Below, in pieces: positions 35,728 to 62,054 of a stretch of DNA of 64,000 nucleotides (position 1 is the stretch's first letter; each line of letters starts with the position of its first letter). Location of the stretch: contig CP163498.1 of NCBI GenBank assembly GCA_041071465.1, positions 62,001-126,000 of the forward strand, in the 5' to 3' direction. A program made the translations under genes and the position numbers. Source of the DNA: Pseudomonas putida. GTDB taxonomy: Bacteria; Pseudomonadota; Gammaproteobacteria; Pseudomonadales; Pseudomonadaceae. The notes below the pieces were generated by a model. That model saw only the letters and a list, made by a program, of their open reading frames with translations, was not told where the DNA came from and ran no database searches.

Positions 35728-38658
35728 ATGTCCAGCCCACAGCACCCGCCCGCCTCCCCTGCCCTGGCCACGCTGATCCAGCGTTCTGGCCTGCCCAGCC
35801 CTTCGCTCAGCGAAACCCAGGCACACGCCGTGCTACAGAAGCACTATGGCATTGCCGGCAACCTGACCGCGCTAGGCAGCCAGCAAGACCTGAATTTCCG
35901 CGTGACCACGCCACAAGGCGGCTTTGTACTCAAGGCTTGCCATGGCAGCTACGCGCAACTGGAGCTGGAGGCGCAGCACGCCGCCCTGGCCTTCCTGCGC
36001 AATCAGGGCTTGCCGGTGCCGGCCGTACGCCCAGCCCTCGATGACCAGGGGTTGCTGACACTGGACTTGGACGGGCAACCACTGCGCATACGCCTGCTCG
36101 AGTACATCGAAGGTCAGCCGCTGACCCGCCTCAAGCACATGGCGCCACGTCTGATGGCTGAACTGGGCGGGCTTTGCGCGAAGCTGGACAAGGCCTTGGT
36201 CGACTTCGACCACCCCGGCCTTGCACGCACACTGCAATGGGACCCGCAACATGCCCAGGCGCTGATCCAGCACCTGTTGCCCGTGCTGCAGAATACCGAG
36301 CAACGCGCCCGCATCGAACAGGCTACCCAGCTGGCAGCCGAGCATCTGGCGCCCCTGGTCAATCAACTGCCAAGCCAGGCCGTGCACCTGGACATCACCG
36401 ACGACAACACCGTGTGGGCCCGCGATGGCGAACGCCAGTGGCAGTTGCAAGGGGTGATCGACTTCGGCGACCTGCTGCACACCTGGCGCATCGCCGACCT
36501 GTCGGTGACTTGCGCGGCGCTGCTGCACCACGCCGGAGGCGACCCGCTGCGGATCCTGCCGGCAATCAGTGCCTACCAGGCGCTCAACCCACTGACCGAA
36601 GCCGAAGTACGTGCCCTCTGGCCACTGGTGCTCAATCGCGCCGCAGTGCTGGTGCTGAGCAGCGCGCAACAACTTGCCGTGGACCCGGGCAACCAATACA
36701 CCCGCGACAACGTCGCCCATGAATGGGAAATCTTCGACACCGCCACCGCTGTGCCTTTCGCGCTGATGGAAGCCGCTATCCTGCAGGCTGCGGGCCTGCA
36801 ACCCAAGGCGCCGGACTTGAGCGGTTGCGCCCCCTTGCTCCCCGAACTGGCCGGGCAGGCTGTAACACGGGTAGACCTGGGGGTGCTCAGCACATATTGC
36901 GAGGCCGGAAACTGGGAGCAACCCGGTTTCGACCAGCACCTGCTGACGTTGCAGGCCGCTCCGGCCTGCAGCCTGCACGGGCAATATCGCCTTTCGCAAA
37001 CCCATATTGATCGCCCTGAAGAGCCCGCCACCTGCGCCCTCGGCGTTGAGCTGCACGTGGCCAACGGCTCCCAGGTGCAGGCGCCGGAAACCGGCATCTG
37101 GCAGCGCCATGGCGACGGCCGTGGCTGCCTGCGCACCACGCACTGGGCTTTGTGGCTGCAGGGCCTGGAGGACGCTCCGGCAGACGGCCAGGCCGTAGAA
37201 AAAGGCCAGTCCCTGGGCCGCAGTTGTGGCTTCCTCAGCGTGCAATTGTGCCTGGACAACGGCGTCCAGCCGTCGTTCTTCGCCACACCGTCCCAAGCTA
37301 CTGCCTGGCTGGCCCTGTGCCCGTCGCCAGCCGCGCTGCTAGGCTTCGATTGCGATGCCGGTCCGCTGCCCGACCCACAAGCACTATTGGCCCGCCGCGA
37401 TGCCAGCTTCGCCCGCTCGCAGAAGCACTACTACGCGCAACCTCCACACATCGAGCGCGGCTGGCGCAACTACTTGATCGACATGCAGGGCCGCTCGTAC
37501 CTGGACATGCTCAACAATGTCGCGGTACTGGGCCACGGCCACCCGCGCATGGCCGCCGAGTCGGCGCGGCAGTGGTCGCTGCTGAACACCAACTCACGCT
37601 TCCACTACGCGGCGATCACCGAATTCTCCGAACGCCTGCTGGACCTGGCCCCCGACGGTTTCGACAGGGTCTTCATGGTCAACAGCGGCACCGAAGCCAA
37701 CGACCTGGCGATTCGCCTGGCCTGGGCCTACAGCGGCGGGCGTGACCTGCTCAGCGTACTGGAGGCCTACCACGGCTGGTCGGTGGCCACCGATGCCATT
37801 TCCACCTCCATCGCCGACAACCCGCAAGCCCTGGAAACCCGCCCGGACTGGGTACACCCGGTCGAGGCGCCGAACACGTTCCGGGGGCGTTTCCGCGGTG
37901 CCGACAGCGCCGCCGACTACCTGCAGGACGTCGACGCCAAGCTGGCTGCCCTGGACGCCCGAGGCCGCCAGTTGGCGGGTATCATCTGCGAACCGGTGTA
38001 CGGCAATGCCGGCGGCATCTCGTTGCCCGCAGGCTACCTGCGCGACGCCTATGCCAAGGTCCGCGCCCGAGGTGGCGTGTGCATCGCCGACGAAGTGCAG
38101 GTGGGCTATGGCCGCCTGGGCGAGTACTTCTGGGGGTTCGAAGAACAAGGCGTGGTGCCCGACATCATTACCATGGCCAAGGGCATGGGCAACGGCCAGC
38201 CGCTGGGCGTGGTCATCACCCGCCGTGAAATCGCCGAGGCGCTGGAGGCCGAGGGTTACTTCTTCTCCTCGGCCGGTGGCAGCCCGGTCAGCTGCCGCAT
38301 AGGCATGGCGGTACTGGACGTGATGCAGGAGGAAGGCCTGTGGGACAACGCCCGCGACACCGGGCGCTACTTCAAGGCCCGTCTGCAGGCCCTGGTCGAC
38401 AAGTACCCGCTGGCCGGCGCGGCACATGGCTCGGGTTTCTACCTGGGACTGGAGCTGGTGCGCGACCGCGCAACCCTGGAACCGGCCACCGAAGAAACCA
38501 TGACGCTGTGCAATCGGCTGCGTGACCTTGGCATCTTCATGCAACCGACCGGCGACTACCTGAACATTCTCAAGATCAAGCCACCGATGTGCACCAGCCG
38601 AGCGAGTGTGGACTACTTTGTCGACTGCATCGACAGGGTGCTGGGCGAAGGGCTGTAA
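35728..38658 (+). CDS. Fused APH-type kinase and class III aminotransferase (possible phospho-lyase)
   Basis: A 976-residue two-enzyme protein. Residues ~50-340 form an aminoglycoside-phosphotransferase/homoserine-kinase-like fold with the catalytic HLDITDDNTVW (near 221) and VIDFGDLLHTW (near 245). Residues ~380-535 are a linker region I cannot assign with confidence; the DNGVQ...QP pieces recall a degenerate M23-like fold. Residues ~545-976 form a class III PLP aminotransferase with MVNSGTEANDLAIRLAW, CIADEVQVGYGRLG and the PLP lysine K818 in MAKGMGNGQPLG. Human relatives of the two halves are hydroxylysine kinase and the AGXT2L phospho-lyases, so a kinase that phosphorylates an amino alcohol followed by phospho-elimination is plausible. 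This is inference. Confidence 0.85.
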   Translation: MSSPQHPPASPALATLIQRSGLPSPSLSETQAHAVLQKHYGIAGNLTALGSQQDLNFRVTTPQGGFVLKACHGSYAQLELEAQHAALAFLRNQGLPVPAVRPALDDQGLLTLDLDGQPLRIRLLEYIEGQPLTRLKHMAPRLMAELGGLCAKLDKALVDFDHPGLARTLQWDPQHAQALIQHLLPVLQNTEQRARIEQATQLAAEHLAPLVNQLPSQAVHLDITDDNTVWARDGERQWQLQGVIDFGDLLHTWRIADLSVTCAALLHHAGGDPLRILPAISAYQALNPLTEAEVRALWPLVLNRAAVLVLSSAQQLAVDPGNQYTRDNVAHEWEIFDTATAVPFALMEAAILQAAGLQPKAPDLSGCAPLLPELAGQAVTRVDLGVLSTYCEAGNWEQPGFDQHLLTLQAAPACSLHGQYRLSQTHIDRPEEPATCALGVELHVANGSQVQAPETGIWQRHGDGRGCLRTTHWALWLQGLEDAPADGQAVEKGQSLGRSCGFLSVQLCLDNGVQPSFFATPSQATAWLALCPSPAALLGFDCDAGPLPDPQALLARRDASFARSQKHYYAQPPHIERGWRNYLIDMQGRSYLDMLNNVAVLGHGHPRMAAESARQWSLLNTNSRFHYAAITEFSERLLDLAPDGFDRVFMVNSGTEANDLAIRLAWAYSGGRDLLSVLEAYHGWSVATDAISTSIADNPQALETRPDWVHPVEAPNTFRGRFRGADSAADYLQDVDAKLAALDARGRQLAGIICEPVYGNAGGISLPAGYLRDAYAKVRARGGVCIADEVQVGYGRLGEYFWGFEEQGVVPDIITMAKGMGNGQPLGVVITRREIAEALEAEGYFFSSAGGSPVSCRIGMAVLDVMQEEGLWDNARDTGRYFKARLQALVDKYPLAGAAHGSGFYLGLELVRDRATLEPATEETMTLCNRLRDLGIFMQPTGDYLNILKIKPPMCTSRASVDYFVDCIDRVLGEGL

Positions 38659-38661
38659 GTA

Positions 38662-39921
38662 TCAAGGCGTGGACCGAATCGCCGCGGCCCACGCCTGCAA
38701 CGCCTCAGTTGCTGCAATGGCAATCTGCTCATCAGTACGCCCACTGAACTGCCGCTCGATCGCATCGGCGGCAATCAGCCCGGCAATGGCAGGCTTGCCC
38801 ACGGCATCGGTCAGGTCAAGCCATTCGCCCCAGCTGGCAGGTACGTCGTACCAGCGCAGGTAGCCGGAGGGTGAGCATGGCCACCAGCGCTCTTCGAACT
38901 GCAAAATCACCTTTTCCAGCATGCCCATCCCCAGATGAGCCAGCGCTTGTCGCTGAGTTACAGGTAGCGCGGGAATGAAATGCAACGCTTTCAATACCCC
39001 TACAGGGACTGTGCAAATGCAGAAATCGCATACCTCATCGTTCACCTTGACGCGCGCGCTCGACCAGTCTATCTGCGTGACCGGCGTGTTCAGACGGATA
39101 TCCAGATCCTTCGCCAGCAAGTCGACAAGCTCGCTGTAACCACCTGGCAGCATCCAATCGCCATGCCCGACACCCTCCTCGTCCAGGGCACTGACCGACA
39201 GTTGCTCCACGGGCAAACATGCTTCCAGTACAAGGTTGGCGTCGATGGCGAACTGAGCGGCGCGCGCGTGCACAGGGTCGAGTGTGGCCATGTAGCGGTT
39301 GATCGCCTCAGACAAAGGCAGTCGCCGGTCAAGCTGCTGGGTCAAGGCGTCCCAGGCCGCGTCGACATCCGGCAACTCTCCACCGCTTGCTGCTGCAAGC
39401 GGGAAACTGAAGTCGGTCTCGACACAAGCCAACCCATGTTGCTGCGCAACGGCGGCCAATGGATTCTCGGCGAAATGCTGAAGCCATGCCGCACCTTCAT
39501 CCGCTTTCACGCCGCCCAACTCGACCGTGTGCGTGCGCCCACCTGTTCGCCCACGTGCCTCCAGCACCGTGCAATCGATACCCCACGCCCGCAAGCGTTG
39601 CGCGGCGGCCAGGCCTGCACAGCCCGCACCAATCACGATCACCTTGCGCGCGCCGGCCCTCAAGGCTGCCTCGGCGGCACGCAGCCCATCATCCCAAGCG
39701 CCATGTGTCATCGCCGGCGCAGTGGCGTTACAGGCTTCTCCGGCAATGACCAAGCGCTCGTTCAGCACTTGGCCCAAGGCACTCCGATGCTGCGGCGTCC
39801 CCCCAGGCAACAGGGCACTGTAGGCACCGAGGCTGAACGGGTCTGTACTCCAGTGAGTGACATGCCAAGCGGTTGGTCTGTGCACGCGCTTCTCCATGAG
39901 GGGACTGTCCTGAATGTGCAT
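38662..39921 (-). CDS. Flavin amine oxidase with circularly permuted domain order
   Basis: A 419-residue FAD amine oxidase whose parts are in an unusual order. Residues 15-85 hold what is normally the C-terminus of the family: WHVTHWSTDPFSLGAYS followed by RLVIAGEACNATAPAMTHGA. The normal N-terminal Rossmann motif follows: KVIVIGAGCAGLAAAQRL (about 93-110) and EARGRTGGRTH. The substrate domain comes last, with the conserved lysine region in GMGMLEKVILQFEERWW, and the protein ends at ALQAWAAAIRSTP, where the WHVTHW strand would usually follow. Every element occurs once, so it looks permuted and not duplicated. No good ribosome site precedes the ATG at 39921 or 39897. Polyamine-related substrate is suggested by the neighbouring spdH. 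Confidence 0.85.
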   Translation of the reverse strand: MHIQDSPLMEKRVHRPTAWHVTHWSTDPFSLGAYSALLPGGTPQHRSALGQVLNERLVIAGEACNATAPAMTHGAWDDGLRAAEAALRAGARKVIVIGAGCAGLAAAQRLRAWGIDCTVLEARGRTGGRTHTVELGGVKADEGAAWLQHFAENPLAAVAQQHGLACVETDFSFPLAAASGGELPDVDAAWDALTQQLDRRLPLSEAINRYMATLDPVHARAAQFAIDANLVLEACLPVEQLSVSALDEEGVGHGDWMLPGGYSELVDLLAKDLDIRLNTPVTQIDWSSARVKVNDEVCDFCICTVPVGVLKALHFIPALPVTQRQALAHLGMGMLEKVILQFEERWWPCSPSGYLRWYDVPASWGEWLDLTDAVGKPAIAGLIAADAIERQFSGRTDEQIAIAATEALQAWAAAIRSTP

Positions 39922-39948
39922 TAATGTTCATAATTTCTAGCAATAAAA

Positions 39949-39974: not shown

Positions 39975-40880
39975 ATGGCCTTTAGCAGCGACTCCCTGGC
40001 AATATTCCTCGCGGTGCTGGATGCCGGCTCGTTCTCCGCCGCCGCCCGCAAATTGGGCCGTGTACCTTCGGCCGTGAGCATGGCGATCGCCCAGCTGGAA
40101 GCGGAGCTGGACCTGCCATTGTTCGACCGCGCCACACGCAAAGCCTTACCCACCAGTGCCGCCCTGGCACTGGAACCCCAAGCCAGGCAGGTGATCTGCC
40201 AACTCAACCTGCTCGACGCCCAAGCCCTGCAATTGCACAAGGGCCTGGAAAAACGCCTGACCATCGCCATGGCGCCCGAGTTGCAGACCGGCCGCTGGAG
40301 CCAGCCGCTGGAAGTCCTCGCCCAGGAATTCCCCAGCCTGGAAATCGAAGTGCGCTCCGCCACCCAGACCGAAGCCATTCGCCTGCTGCATGACGGCAGT
40401 GTGCAGTTGGCGCTGGTGTTCGAACGGCCCGGCATCGACGAGCGCGAGTCATTCCTCGAAGCCGGCAGCCAATTGCTGGTGGCCGTCGCCTCACCGCGCC
40501 ATCCTGCCGGGCAAAACAGCGGTACGCCTCTGCCTGAAGAGGCCTTCGCCGAACAACGGCAGATCATCGTGGCCTCGGGCAAGGCCACCGGGTCAGACCC
40601 GCGCATGGTGCTGTCGCGGCGCATCTGGCTGACCGACAGCTACCTGGCCACGCTGGACCTGGTGCAGTCAGGGCTGGGCTGGGCCTACCTGCCGCAGCCA
40701 CTGGTTGAACCGCTGATCGCTTCGGGCGCACTGGCCGAGGTACGCTTTGACAACATGGCCAGCCGCCTGCGCTTGTGGGTGGACATCATCTGGATAAAGT
40801 CGCGGCCGTTGGGCCTGGGCGCCAGGCGTTACCTGGACGTCATGCGCCAATGCTTTGAAACAGAATCCCCAAGGTCCTGA
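39975..40880 (+). CDS. LysR-family transcriptional regulator
   Basis: A 301-residue regulator. The N-terminal winged HTH is clear (FLAVLDAGSFSAAARKLGRVPSAVSMAIAQLE read across residues 11-43), followed by LFDRATRKALPT. The C-terminal part is the usual two-lobed effector-binding fold. It is divergent from the amine oxidase and 55 bases upstream of spdH in the same direction, so either or both are likely targets. Its effector could be a polyamine, but nothing in the sequence proves this. Confidence 0.92.
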   Translation: MAFSSDSLAIFLAVLDAGSFSAAARKLGRVPSAVSMAIAQLEAELDLPLFDRATRKALPTSAALALEPQARQVICQLNLLDAQALQLHKGLEKRLTIAMAPELQTGRWSQPLEVLAQEFPSLEIEVRSATQTEAIRLLHDGSVQLALVFERPGIDERESFLEAGSQLLVAVASPRHPAGQNSGTPLPEEAFAEQRQIIVASGKATGSDPRMVLSRRIWLTDSYLATLDLVQSGLGWAYLPQPLVEPLIASGALAEVRFDNMASRLRLWVDIIWIKSRPLGLGARRYLDVMRQCFETESPRS

Positions 40881-40935
40881 GCCATACCCAACTACGCTTC
40901 GAGCAAACCAAAGGTTACCCAGTAAGGACACTGAC

Positions 40936-42801
40936 ATGACCATCACTCGACGCGACTTCCTCAATGGCGTAGCCCTCACCATCGGTGCCGGGCTCACCCC
41001 ATTGCAAATACTCCAGGCCGCGCCTTCCGGCCGCTACTACCCGCCCGCCCTCACCGGGCTGCGCGGCAGCCACCCCGGTGCATTCGAAGTTGCGCACCAG
41101 ATGGGCTGGGAAAAGAAAGTATTCGACACCAGCAGCCTGAAGATTGAGGAGCAGTACGATCTGGTGGTGGTCGGCGCGGGCATCAGCGGCTTGTCCGCAG
41201 CCTGGTTCTATCGGCAGCAGCACCCAACCGCGCGCGTGCTGATCATCGAGAACCACGACGACTTCGGCGGCCATGCCAAGCGCAACGAATTCCAGGCGGG
41301 AAGCCAGATGATCCTTGGCTACGGCGGCAGCGAAGCCTTCCAGTCGCCCAAGCACCTTTACAGCGCTACGGTGAACGGCCTGCTCAAACGACTGAACGTG
41401 GACATGGACCGCTTCCAGACCGCCTTCGACCGCAACTTTTACCCCAACCTCAGCTTGTCTCGTGGCGTATTCTTCGACAAGGCCGGCTTCGGCGAAGCGA
41501 AGCTGGTCAGTGGCGATCCGACGCCCATGGTCGCCGACGACATTGCCCCGGACAAACTCAACGCGCGCAGCTGGCGTGCGTTCATTGGCGACTTCCCACT
41601 GCCCGAGGCCGACCGCCAGGCATTGATCGATCTGCACGAAGCACCCAGAGACTACCTGGCGGGCAAAACCCTGGAACAGAAAGAGGCCTATCTGGCCAAG
41701 ACCAGCTATCAGGACTTCCTGCGCAAAGACGTCGGCCTGAGCGAAGCGGCAGCGCGCTACTTCCTCAGCCGCACCAACGACTTTTCCGCGCTGAGCATCG
41801 ATGCCGTGGCCGCCGCCGACGCCTATGGCGTGGGCTTCCCCGGCTTTGCCGCCATGGGCCTTGCGCCGGTCAGCGAAGCGCTGAAAGCAGAAATGGAAGA
41901 GCCCTACATCTATCACTTCCCCGACGGCAACGCCTCGCTGGCACGGCTACTGGTGCGTAGCCTGATCCCCGCTGTAGCACCCGGCAACGACATGAACGAC
42001 ATTGTCCTGGCGCCCTTCGATTACGCCAGGCTGGACGTGGCACAAAGCCCGGTACGCCTGCGCCTGAACAGCACCGCAGTCAGCGTCGGCAACCGCAACG
42101 GTGGCGTCGACATCGGCTACAGCCGGGCCGGCCAGCTGCACCGTGTACACGGCAAGCACTGCATACTGGCCTGCTACAACATGATGATCCCCTACCTGCT
42201 GCGCGACCTCACCGCCGAGCAGGCCCACGCCTTGGCGCAGAACGTGAAGTTCCCGCTGGTGTACACCAAAGTGGTGATTCGCAATTGGCACAGCTTTATG
42301 AAATTGGGTGTGCACGAAATCTACGCACCGAACCAGCCCTACAGCCGCGTCAAGCTGGATTATCCGGTGGACATCGGCGGCTACAGCCATCCACGCGACC
42401 CCGACCAGCCCATAGGCTTGCACATGGTCTACGTACCGACCACGCCCAACGCGGGCATGGATGCTCGCAGCCAGGCCCGCGTCGGCCGCAGCAAGTTGTA
42501 CGCCATGAACTTCGAGCAGATGGAGGCCATGGTGCGAGACCAGCTACAGGCCATGCTAGGGCCGGCCGGCTTTGACTATCACAAGGATGTTCAGGCCATT
42601 ACCATCAACCGTTGGCCACACGGTTACTCGTACTTCGCCAACAGCCTGTTCGATGACGAAGAAGAGAGTGAAAAGCTGATGAACCTCGCCCGCCAGAAGG
42701 TCGGCAATGTGGCCATAGCCAACTCTGATGCGGCCTGGGAGGCCTATGCGCATGCGGCTATTGATGAAGCGTCACGTGCGGTGAACGAGTTGTTCGCGTA
42801 G
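40936..42801 (+). CDS. spdH: Tat-exported FAD/NAD(P)-binding protein, spermidine dehydrogenase-like
   Basis: A 621-residue flavoprotein with an N-terminal twin-arginine signal (TRRDFLNGVALTIGAG), so it probably acts in the periplasm. The Rossmann motif DLVVVGAGISGLSAAWF is near residue 75, with NHDDFGGHAKRNEF following. Length and layout fit SpdH, the spermidine dehydrogenase of P. aeruginosa. I start at the ATG at 40936, with AAGGA upstream; the longer frame from 40855 would overlap the LysR gene. It may be co-transcribed with that regulator. Convergent with kdpE. Confidence 0.85.
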   Translation: MTITRRDFLNGVALTIGAGLTPLQILQAAPSGRYYPPALTGLRGSHPGAFEVAHQMGWEKKVFDTSSLKIEEQYDLVVVGAGISGLSAAWFYRQQHPTARVLIIENHDDFGGHAKRNEFQAGSQMILGYGGSEAFQSPKHLYSATVNGLLKRLNVDMDRFQTAFDRNFYPNLSLSRGVFFDKAGFGEAKLVSGDPTPMVADDIAPDKLNARSWRAFIGDFPLPEADRQALIDLHEAPRDYLAGKTLEQKEAYLAKTSYQDFLRKDVGLSEAAARYFLSRTNDFSALSIDAVAAADAYGVGFPGFAAMGLAPVSEALKAEMEEPYIYHFPDGNASLARLLVRSLIPAVAPGNDMNDIVLAPFDYARLDVAQSPVRLRLNSTAVSVGNRNGGVDIGYSRAGQLHRVHGKHCILACYNMMIPYLLRDLTAEQAHALAQNVKFPLVYTKVVIRNWHSFMKLGVHEIYAPNQPYSRVKLDYPVDIGGYSHPRDPDQPIGLHMVYVPTTPNAGMDARSQARVGRSKLYAMNFEQMEAMVRDQLQAMLGPAGFDYHKDVQAITINRWPHGYSYFANSLFDDEEESEKLMNLARQKVGNVAIANSDAAWEAYAHAAIDEASRAVNELFA

Positions 42802-42923
42802 CGCCTGCCAGGGGTTGCCTCGTGCTAAAGCGAAATATCCTACAACTCGTTAGGAAGCCGATGCTCCTTGGCCCTGGAGTCGAGAACAGCGCCCTGAATT
42901 GGCACTGTCCGTATAATTTCGGT

Positions 42924-43618
42924 TTATGCGGCCGGCGCCACCAACCTGTACCCCACTCCCGCTTCGGTGATGATAAACCTTGGCGCCGTGGGGTCATCCC
43001 CAGCTTCTGCCGTAAATGCCCTACGACGATCCGCAAGTAATGAGTGTCCTCCACATGCGTCGGCCCCCAGATATCCTTGAGCAGTTGCTGCTGGGTGATC
43101 ACCCGCCCAGGGTGACCGGCCAACAGCGCCAGCAAGGCATACTCCTTGCGCGTCAACGCCACTTCCACACCGTCAATAGTCACCCGGCGAAAGGCGAAGT
43201 TCACGGTCAGCGGCCCAAAGCTGGCCGCCACCTCAGAGCCGCCGGCCTGTGGCACCTGGCGCAGCAAGGCCCGCACCCGCGCGAGAAACTCCTGGATGCC
43301 GAACGGCTTGGTCACGTAGTCATTGGCACCGCCATCCAGCGCATCGACCTTCTGCACTTCACTGGCACGCACCGACAGCACCATCACCGGCACCGCGCTC
43401 CACTCGCGCAGTTCACGCAGCACCTGCTGGCCGTCCATGTCCGGCAGCCCCAGGTCGAGCACCACCAGGTCCGGCTTGCCCAAAGCTGCCTGGGCCAGCC
43501 CTTCCTCGCCGGTAGCGGCTTCGAGCACTTTGTAGCCTTGCGAAGCCAGGCTGATGCGCAGGAACTTGCGGATCTGCGGTTCATCGTCGATGACCAACAG
43601 CGTGGCGGACTGGCTCAT
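42924..43618 (-). CDS. kdpE: Response regulator KdpE, C-terminus frameshifted by a one-base deletion
   Basis: OmpR-type response regulator that activates kdpFABC at low potassium or high osmolarity. The receiver domain has DDEPQ near the N-terminus, the phosphorylation aspartate in VVLDLGLPDMDG and the lysine in YVTKPFG. The winged-helix output reads to HYLRIVVGHLRQKLG, then slips in the four-base run at 42998-43001, where five are expected. Repair gives DDPTAPRFIITEAGVGYRLV and a stop at 42924, 231 residues in total. As read, the frame runs on to 42758 with an unrelated tail. Its ATG overlaps the kdpD stop. Confidence 0.9.
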
Positions 43619-60126: not shown

Positions 60127-62054
60127 CCAAGCGCTTGAGCTGGGACATTCATACCCGCACCCAGATCATCAGCCTCGGCCCTGCCCTGCTGCTGACCTTG
60201 CTGTTGATCAGCTTCTTTACCTTCGTGCGTATCCAGGACCTGCGCCAGGAACTCAACCACACCGGGCAACTGATCGCCAACCAGTTGGCACCGGCGTCGG
60301 AGTACGGGGTGATTTCGGGCAACAACGAAGTACTTGAAGGGCTGATGCGCGCCACCCTCAGCATCCCGCATGTGCGTTTTCTGGAAGTGCAGGACAGCCG
60401 CAACCACATCCTCGTGTACGTGGAGCAGTCCGACGAAAGCGCCAACCGCGCACAACAGGTAGAAGTGTTCCAGGCGCCCATCCGCCTGCAACAGATCCGC
60501 CTGGACAACGATTTCCTGCAACAGGGCAAGGCCACCACCCCGGCCATTGGTGACGACTACCTGGGCCGGGTGATAGTCGGCATGTCCGATGATGCCTTCA
60601 GCCAGCGGCAACAGGAAATCGTGATCAAGGCCGGGATCCTTGCACTGTTCGCCCTGCTGTTCACCTTTTTGCTGGCTCGCCGCCTGGCCCTGAGCCTGGC
60701 CAAGCCGATCAGCGACATGGGGCATGCGGTCAAGGCCATTCAGCAGGGCGAGTACAACACCCCCTTGCCGGTGGTGGACGACAGCGAACTGGGCCACCTG
60801 GCGCGTCACATCAACAACCTGGCCAGCGCCCTGGAACAGGCCAGCGATGAACAGAAGCAGGCCATTGCCGAATTGATCCAGGCTCGCGAGGAGGCTGAAC
60901 AGGCCAACCGCGCGAAATCGGACTTCCTGGCCATGATGAGCCATGAGCTGCGCACACCGATGAATGGCGTGCTAGGCATGCTGCAGTTGCTGGAAACCAC
61001 ACCGCTGAGCAGCGAGCAGGCCGATTACACGGCAGTGGCCAGCGAGTCCACCGGGCATTTGCTGAAGGTCATCAACGACATCCTCGACTTTTCGCGTATC
61101 GAGCGCGCCGCGCTGCAACTGGAGCACATCGACTTCAATCTCGGCGAGTTGATCACCAGCAGTGTCCAGTCGTTCCAGCACAGCGCCCAGCAGCGCGGCC
61201 TGGGCCTGCACCTGCAACTGCCGGCCGGCTTCGAGCAACTGCAGGTGAACGGCGACCCCACGCGCATCCGCCAAATCCTGCTGAACCTGATAGGCAACGC
61301 CCTGAAATTCACAGAACGCGGGCAGGTACAGGTCGAAGCACGTTGGCAGGTACTCGATCGGCAACTGATCTGGCTGACCTGCAGCGTGCGCGACACCGGC
61401 ATCGGCATCGACAGCGACCGCCTGGAAATGATGTTCATCGCTTTCCAGCAGGCCGACAGCTCGATTTCCCGCCGTTATGGCGGCACCGGGCTGGGGCTTT
61501 CGATCGCCCGCACCTTGGCCGAGCGCATGGGCGGCAAGCTGCGCGGTGAAAGCCGTGAGGGCCTGGGGTCGACTTTCACCCTGGAAATGCCACTGGCCCT
61601 CGCCACCCCTGCCCCCGTCCCACTGAAGCCGCCCACCACTGCGCCAACGATAGTGCCCGACAATGATCAGGTACTGCTGGTAGAGGACAACCCGGTCAAC
61701 CAAAGCGTCATCGAGGCCATGCTGCGCAGCCTGGGGCTTGTGGTATGCACGGCCGAGGATGGCCTTGAGGCGGTCGACCTGGTTGGCCAGCAGCGCTTCG
61801 CCGCCGTGCTGATGGATTGCCGCCTGCCACACCTGGACGGCTATGAAGCCACCCGGCGCATCCGCCAGTTGCCCAACGGCGCCGGGCTACCGATCATCGC
61901 CCTGACCGCCAACGCCTTGCAGGGCGACCGCGAGCGTTGCATGGCCGCTGGCATGGACGACTACCTGAGCAAACCCTTGCGCCGCACCGAACTGCAGCGG
62001 GTGCTGCAGCGCTGGTTACCCGGTCGGACAACCGCGACTGGCGATAAATGCTAA
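60123..62054 (+). CDS. Hybrid sensor histidine kinase/response regulator (PA1611-like)
   Basis: A 643-residue membrane kinase. Two membrane segments (about residues 15-35 and 161-182) enclose a periplasmic sensor of about 125 residues, followed by HAMP, a HisKA domain with H274 in [15 protein letters not shown], an ATPase domain ([20 protein letters not shown]) and a C-terminal receiver with the phospho-acceptor aspartate D565 in [12 protein letters not shown]. There is no HPt domain, so it must pass phosphate to a separate HPt protein. Position just before fabA-fabB matches P. aeruginosa PA1611, which is known to interact with RetS and signal through HptB; orthology is inferred from position and layout. 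Confidence 0.9.

Follow-up and report, generated by a model that had tools for sequence, protein, structure and literature searches.

A probable circularly permuted flavin amine oxidase homologue in Pseudomonas putida and its relatives

Can a flavin amine oxidase, both ends of whose chain touch flavin adenine dinucleotide (FAD), be encoded with its sequence blocks in rotated order? This question is raised by a gene of Pseudomonas putida on the minus strand, at positions 38662 to 39921, of the 64,000 nucleotides analyzed here (hereafter the window; positions 62,001 to 126,000 of the forward strand of contig CP163498.1, GenBank assembly GCA_041071465.1). Amine oxidases, including monoamine oxidase (MAO), LSD1 and the polyamine oxidases (PAO), are among the best-studied flavoenzymes, and the solved relatives that we compared match the protein in canonical order. 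A natural and conserved permutation would be a ready-made experiment on chain order in such a fold. We consider it very probable that the gene encodes a circularly permuted flavin amine oxidase homologue with a predicted normal fold, likely amine oxidation activity and predicted non-covalent FAD. The sequence shows that its blocks stand in exchanged order, each occurs once, the chain is cut in a loop, the old ends are joined at the start of the Rossmann fold, and the FAD-binding and catalytic residues are intact. The gene and its parts are as follows.

38662..39921, minus strand: permuted flavin amine oxidase gene (419 amino acids plus stop; Pfam match)
39658..39921, minus strand: moved piece, residues 1-88, a homologue of the C-terminal piece of canonical enzymes (Pfam profile 369-442/443; LSD2 chain 696-771)
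39646..39657, minus strand: new linkage, residues 89-92, between predicted helix 72-88 and strand 93-97
39529..39645, minus strand: former N-terminus, residues 93-131, with the Rossmann strand, GxGxxG (98-103), E121 and RxGGR (125-129)
38911..38913, minus strand: codon of Lys337, at the position of the family's catalytic lysine (LSD2/LSD1 alignment)
39820..39822, minus strand: codon of Tyr34, the aromatic-cage position in the moved piece (row alignment)
38674..38733, minus strand: helix 397-416, the present C-terminus (predicted structure); in canonical relatives the cut-site loop comes next

The 419-residue open reading frame is uninterrupted, with its ATG ending at 39921 and its TGA at 38662-38664. 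The moved piece contains a strand, the aromatic-cage motif DPFSLGAYS (starting at residue 27), the FAD motif GEA...THGA (GEACNATAPAMTHGA, starting at residue 61) and the last helix, 72-88, which according to the predicted secondary structure is joined by residues 89-92 to the first Rossmann strand. GAGCAG follows at 98-103 and RTGGR at 125-129, so that the motif positions given in the original prediction all hold in the translated frame. Met9 (39897) may be the true start, as in the database entry for this protein (P0002, 411 amino acids), and the choice between Met1 and Met9 leaves the permutation unaffected. A 314-codon open frame antisense to the gene (window 38980-39924, plus strand) is probably a by-product of high G+C, and a scan for promoters and terminators gave nothing above shuffled sequences.

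Order of the sequence blocks

The Pfam family PF01593 (Amino_oxidase) matches the protein in three stretches, with 190.9 bits in the native and 200.5 bits in the rotated order (cut-off 19.8). When the whole genome, a single contig of 6.32 Mb, was scanned, profile positions 369-442/443 were found upstream of positions 2-115 and 190-366. This profile order bears out the earlier view that the usual C-terminal strand and FAD motif come first and are followed by the usual N-terminal GxGxxG and RxGGR. We further moved residues 1-89 to the end of the chain and compared the alignments obtained with the native and rotated queries. The rotated query was better for 29 of 30 canonical relatives, and the native one was better for all targets of permuted order, namely 26 of 26 from the family of the window's protein (group A) and 10 of 10 from a second permuted group described below (group B). 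A group B query behaved similarly, the rotated form being better for 28 of 30 canonical relatives (two were equal) and the native form for 36 of 36 permuted targets, one of which is the query itself.

Is this a single odd gene? Protein searches scored about 8000 candidates sharing most words with the query, and we used the best 120 of 397, 341 and 3178 matches. The 397 were homologues found in the first search, whose best 120 share 48-100% identity with the query across 71-100% of its length. The best 120 matches to the rotated query were again members of the permuted family, or short proteins without the first piece, and none was canonical. Order was typed in 166 clusters (one of them, P0002, the window's own) by alignment of the query pieces; a regular-expression pattern had been able to order 116 of 121 proteins and, in a larger set, 146 of 167, the others not fitting it. 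The permuted order was found in 162 clusters and the canonical order in none, and four clusters (303, 352, 240 and 348 amino acids) were without the moved piece. A second copy of any query piece was seen in none of the 166. Neither the window's protein nor those 162 clusters thus begin with the Rossmann start and end with the cage and GEA motif, and because the order is exchanged we class the protein as a permuted variant and not as a member of the canonical LSD/PAO/MAO architecture. The homologues of the same order that the original prediction had proposed to look for therefore exist in number, and its choice of permutation over partial duplication is backed by the order, by the single copy of each block and by the rotation test. 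Partial duplication was rejected, as no block occurs twice among the homologues examined.

Judged by these alignments, the permuted order is the property of a conserved family. Entries with a named source come from Pseudomonas species and from actinobacteria (Acidimicrobiales, Ilumatobacteraceae, Actinomycetota), apart from one that is labelled Enterobacterales. The 17 loci taken from named genomes are without exception permuted genes of Pseudomonas. A separate record, from Pseudomonas hunanensis xwS6 (L021), has the same order at 99.8% identity. An assembly artefact, the refutation that the original prediction had allowed for, is rejected since the order is common to independent genomes and metagenomes. 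Of 298 genomes sampled from the genus, 11 match at E 1e-30; nine, the window's own included, carry permuted genes (10 loci, as one genome has two copies) and two carry canonical relatives. Such genome counts are lower bounds, because few candidates were scored per genome (four in the phylum search mentioned below, at most six in the others). Such a scattered distribution may reflect gain and loss, or transfer. Two genomes, G001 (L016 and L020) and Pseudomonas sp. URMO17WK12:I2 (L033 and L034), have two permuted copies at two places. Six plasmid records (Haloarcula, Synechocystis) matched as well, in each case over the core alone (70% of the query).

Comparison with proteins of known structure and with canonical bacterial enzymes places the exchange more precisely. 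With the native query, the alignment to LSD2 (4gu0) fell into three pieces, of which one breaks the order: residues 9-84 lie on chain positions 696-771, after residues 256-362 on 527-640. With the rotated query the last two pieces merge into one of 73.6 bits. LSD1 (KDM1A) and LSD2 (KDM1B), eukaryotic chromatin enzymes with an amine oxidase domain of canonical order, correspond at their C-terminal ends to residues 9-84 of the permuted protein by sequence. Maize PAO (1b37), Fms1 and MAO A are likewise canonical. The canonical bacterial FAD-dependent amine oxidases L018 and L041 (Pseudomonas) and L042 (of the same class) have the same motifs in canonical order, with identities of 31-34% in the core and 36-45% in the moved piece; L041 at least has a twin-arginine leader before the Rossmann start, as seen in its translation. 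The AlphaFold2 model of the whole chain is one compact and confident unit (predicted local distance difference test, pLDDT, 93; predicted template-modelling score, pTM, 0.91), and a single compact fold like that of LSD1 and LSD2 is predicted. This model bears only indirectly on the placement of the first 85 residues at the canonical C-terminal position in space, which the original prediction requires.

Several observations weigh against this reading or limit it. The total score over PDB chains hardly differs between native and rotated queries (116.1 and 116.5 bits for LSD2), and for the best LSD1 chain it drops from 116.2 (native) to 115.2 bits (rotated), so that in this comparison only the joining of the pieces, and not the total, reveals the permutation; nearly equal totals are what one expects when the same blocks are present in another order. 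A sequential structure aligner matches LSD2 and LSD1 over residues 87-417 only, leaving residues 1-85 unmatched. The moved piece folded alone reached a pLDDT of only 44.7; such low confidence is consistent with a part that depends on the remainder of the protein to fold, but the prediction drew on only 14 similar sequences. Outside the closest relatives the genes around the permuted one change, and no intermediate carrying the moved piece twice was found among the proteins and loci examined.

Natural circular permutation is a known event and the enzyme family is well known, and we have not seen the two combined in the openly licensed literature. Among the titles and abstracts listed in full-text searches of the openly licensed part of PubMed Central (PMC) we found no description of a natural permutation in flavin amine oxidases, and no word beginning with 'permut' occurs in the accessible parts of PMC7576179 or PMC12224317, which are reviews or phylogenies of the family. 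Permutation is described, in excerpts of the respective sources, for a split-barrel flavin-binding domain (Murzin 1998, cited in PMC13327496) and for S-adenosylmethionine methyltransferases (PMC1282579); in both the cofactor site is likewise kept, the folds and enzyme classes being unrelated to the present ones. The portion of PMC1683948 at hand treats only permutations in other folds, or methods. Database names such as flavin monoamine oxidase and FAD-dependent oxidoreductase do not note the permuted order, and sequential structure aligners omit a fifth of the permuted chain.

Active site and likely reaction

The FAD-binding residues G98, G100 and G103 (GxGxxG), E121 (the acidic residue that closes the second strand) and R125, G127, G128 and R129 (RxGGR) are identical in all 27 group A rows of the alignment. 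The C-terminal FAD motif (GEA...HGA...G..AA) and the cage residue, at 27-83, align with those of the canonical rows, and position 34 is Tyr or Trp in 61 of 61 aligned rows. A lysine occupies the position of Lys337 in 27 of 27 group A, 10 of 10 group B and 19 of 24 canonical rows; we take its equivalents to be Lys661 of LSD1 and Lys300 of maize PAO. The FAD residues, Lys337 and aromatic 34 are kept in all 37 permuted rows, five of which have Asp in place of Glu62. In MAO the FAD is covalently bound on a cysteine. The aligned position in groups A and B is Ala or Ser, and therefore FAD is predicted to be bound non-covalently.

The ratio of nonsynonymous to synonymous substitution rates (dN/dS) was attempted by the NG86 method for eight of the 17 named loci, with L035 and the moved piece of L030 not computable. 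The whole-gene ratios of the seven comparisons span 0.09-0.17 (L021, which is nearly identical, 0.16; L022, 0.12; L023, 0.12; L024, 0.16; L028, 0.17; L030, 0.09; L033, 0.16). The ratios were alike in the moved piece (0.13-0.19) and the rest (0.11-0.18) for L022, L023, L024, L028 and L033; L021 is too similar to inform on separate parts. By this measure both the moved piece and the rest are under purifying selection.

FAD-dependent amine oxidation, the ordinary activity of amine oxidases, is the likely function. A hydride would move from the C-N bond of the substrate to FAD beside Lys337, with Tyr34 of the moved piece lining the site. It is possible, though doubtful, that the protein is truly permuted and is not an amine oxidase, being instead a dehydrogenase with another electron acceptor or an enzyme that acts on a different substrate. 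Two aromatic residues, W346 and W357, are particular to group A and invariant in it (27 of 27 rows), and gene contexts vary between species. Set against these are the retained Lys337, aromatic-cage position, Glu62 or Asp and FAD residues, and a spermidine dehydrogenase (SpdH) homologue nearby in the window. The lysine cannot tell an oxidase from a dehydrogenase, since according to an excerpt of PMC12224317 a lysine near flavin N5 is near-universal in the superfamily, in both kinds of enzyme. The same excerpt describes relatives led by twin-arginine translocation (Tat) signals that include dehydrogenases using cytochrome c and not O2; this may bear on group B, which therefore need not consist of oxidases.

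A second permuted group and the number of origins

When 398 genomes of the phylum were searched with a profile, 25 had matches, of which five are permuted (the window's own included), 19 are canonical and one (L060) is undecided. Two of the five come from one family in another class, and their proteins align with the query over nearly its full permuted length at 30-32% identity. Further permuted genes of this kind, group B, were found in nine of 292 genomes of that order (the tenth match, L072, is canonical), in two of 289 genomes of the class (the starting genome included; two further matches are canonical) and in four of 17 genomes of a second order. The members (L063-L071, L073 and L081-L083) represent several genera of one family and one further order. 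In all 10 group B frames examined, an arginine pair and a hydrophobic stretch stand directly before the moved piece, presumably a Tat-like leader. In both A and B the cut falls in one and the same loop, which links the last strand to the helix preceding it. L073 keeps VPDPTGHLITRW at the cut, resembling the canonical loop (IPDPLGFQITRW in L041), which marks the place of the cut.

Did the permutation arise once or twice? We constructed a tree from 27 A, 9 B and 24 canonical rows (60 in all, the permuted ones rotated), seven rows having been dropped after a first tree, six because of long branches (L001, L002, L060, L047, L080 and L058) and L069 as a near copy of L068. Group A is supported at 100/100 and group B at 100/97, and at 98/93 B falls together with canonical enzymes from Pseudomonas and from other members of its class. 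Two changes of the order label are required on this tree, and a single permuted clade is rejected by the approximately unbiased (AU) test (p 0.008 with all columns, p 0.018 without the moved piece). On these alignments we think it rather likely that the permutation arose twice in the superfamily. This view is weakened by the long branch leading to A, by the 93/86 node that sets A apart, by the dropped rows and by the thin sampling of canonical sisters. Somewhat less firmly, we suppose that the fold has a hot spot for permutation, where the chain was independently rotated at the same loop in at least two bacterial lineages, both of which would have retained the FAD and catalytic residues and spread as working enzyme families. 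Group A would then be leaderless (Pseudomonas and Acidimicrobiia-type actinobacteria), and group B exported, its Tat-like signal having stayed in front of the rotated domain. Two independent events at one site, if true, would be a rare natural replicate of circular permutation.

We regard as unlikely a single ancient permutation behind both groups, in which the canonical neighbours of B would be reversions or long branches would mislead the tree. The shared cut loop and manner of joining would be expected from it, as would the near-full-length alignment of the two B proteins with the query. Group A moreover lies on a long branch (1.11 changes per column), the node joining B to 12 canonical relatives apart from A (93/86) is below the starred level, nine of the 60 rows have an unlike letter make-up and the long canonical row L079 was retained. 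The AU rejection holds with or without the moved piece, however, B stands with its nearest canonical enzymes at 98/93, and a rooted tree would require several returns to canonical order.

For the events themselves, we propose that the gene was duplicated in tandem, that the copies were fused in frame and that the outer parts were then lost, the duplication and the loss having been supposed already in the original prediction; as no two-copy intermediate turned up among the proteins and loci examined, this route can only be put forward conditionally. That the first 85 residues are instead an added segment, or an artefact of gene calling or assembly, is scarcely credible and is refuted by the homologue set: the region does not fold confidently alone, as such a segment might not, yet it carries the canonical C-terminal motifs in order, at 36-45% identity to the C-termini of many canonical relatives and 26-35% to others (none in L003 and L060), no homologue examined has a second copy, the protein ends without such a piece, and independent genomes share the order.

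Gene neighbourhood

Three genes flank the permuted gene or lie close to it in the window.

39975..40880, plus strand: divergent LysR-type regulator gene, with 53 bp between it and the permuted gene's start
40933..42801, plus strand: SpdH homologue (1102 bits to SpdH 7d9f), beyond the LysR gene
35728..38658, plus strand: phosphotransferase-aminotransferase fusion PRK06149 (1632 bits), present in 5 of the 17 named loci

The neighbourhood was counted over about 6 kb on each side of the 17 named loci. In five of them the regulator stands next to the permuted gene and in one more it is near, and SpdH was found in one, of the same species. Ten neighbours in six other loci include major facilitator superfamily (MFS) transporters, a TauD-like dioxygenase and a permease of the cytosine/purine type. 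The nearest NCBIfam model to the regulator is AceR, at 226.5 bits, below the cut-off of 500. Because the neighbourhood changes outside the closest relatives, the substrate is a guess, and a diamine or polyamine is tentatively the best one from the neighbouring SpdH and AceR-like regulator.

PRK06149 combines an APH-type kinase with a class III aminotransferase, and its gene is convergent with the permuted gene, with 3 bp between the stop codons. Farther away, a response regulator gene (window 42758-43618, minus strand) is matched by four relatives only to residue 210, after which the frame differs, and its DNA differs from that of L021 by one base in length over 1101 columns. We take this regulator to be KdpE-like, and in the relatives it stands beside a kinase that we likewise take to be KdpD-like.
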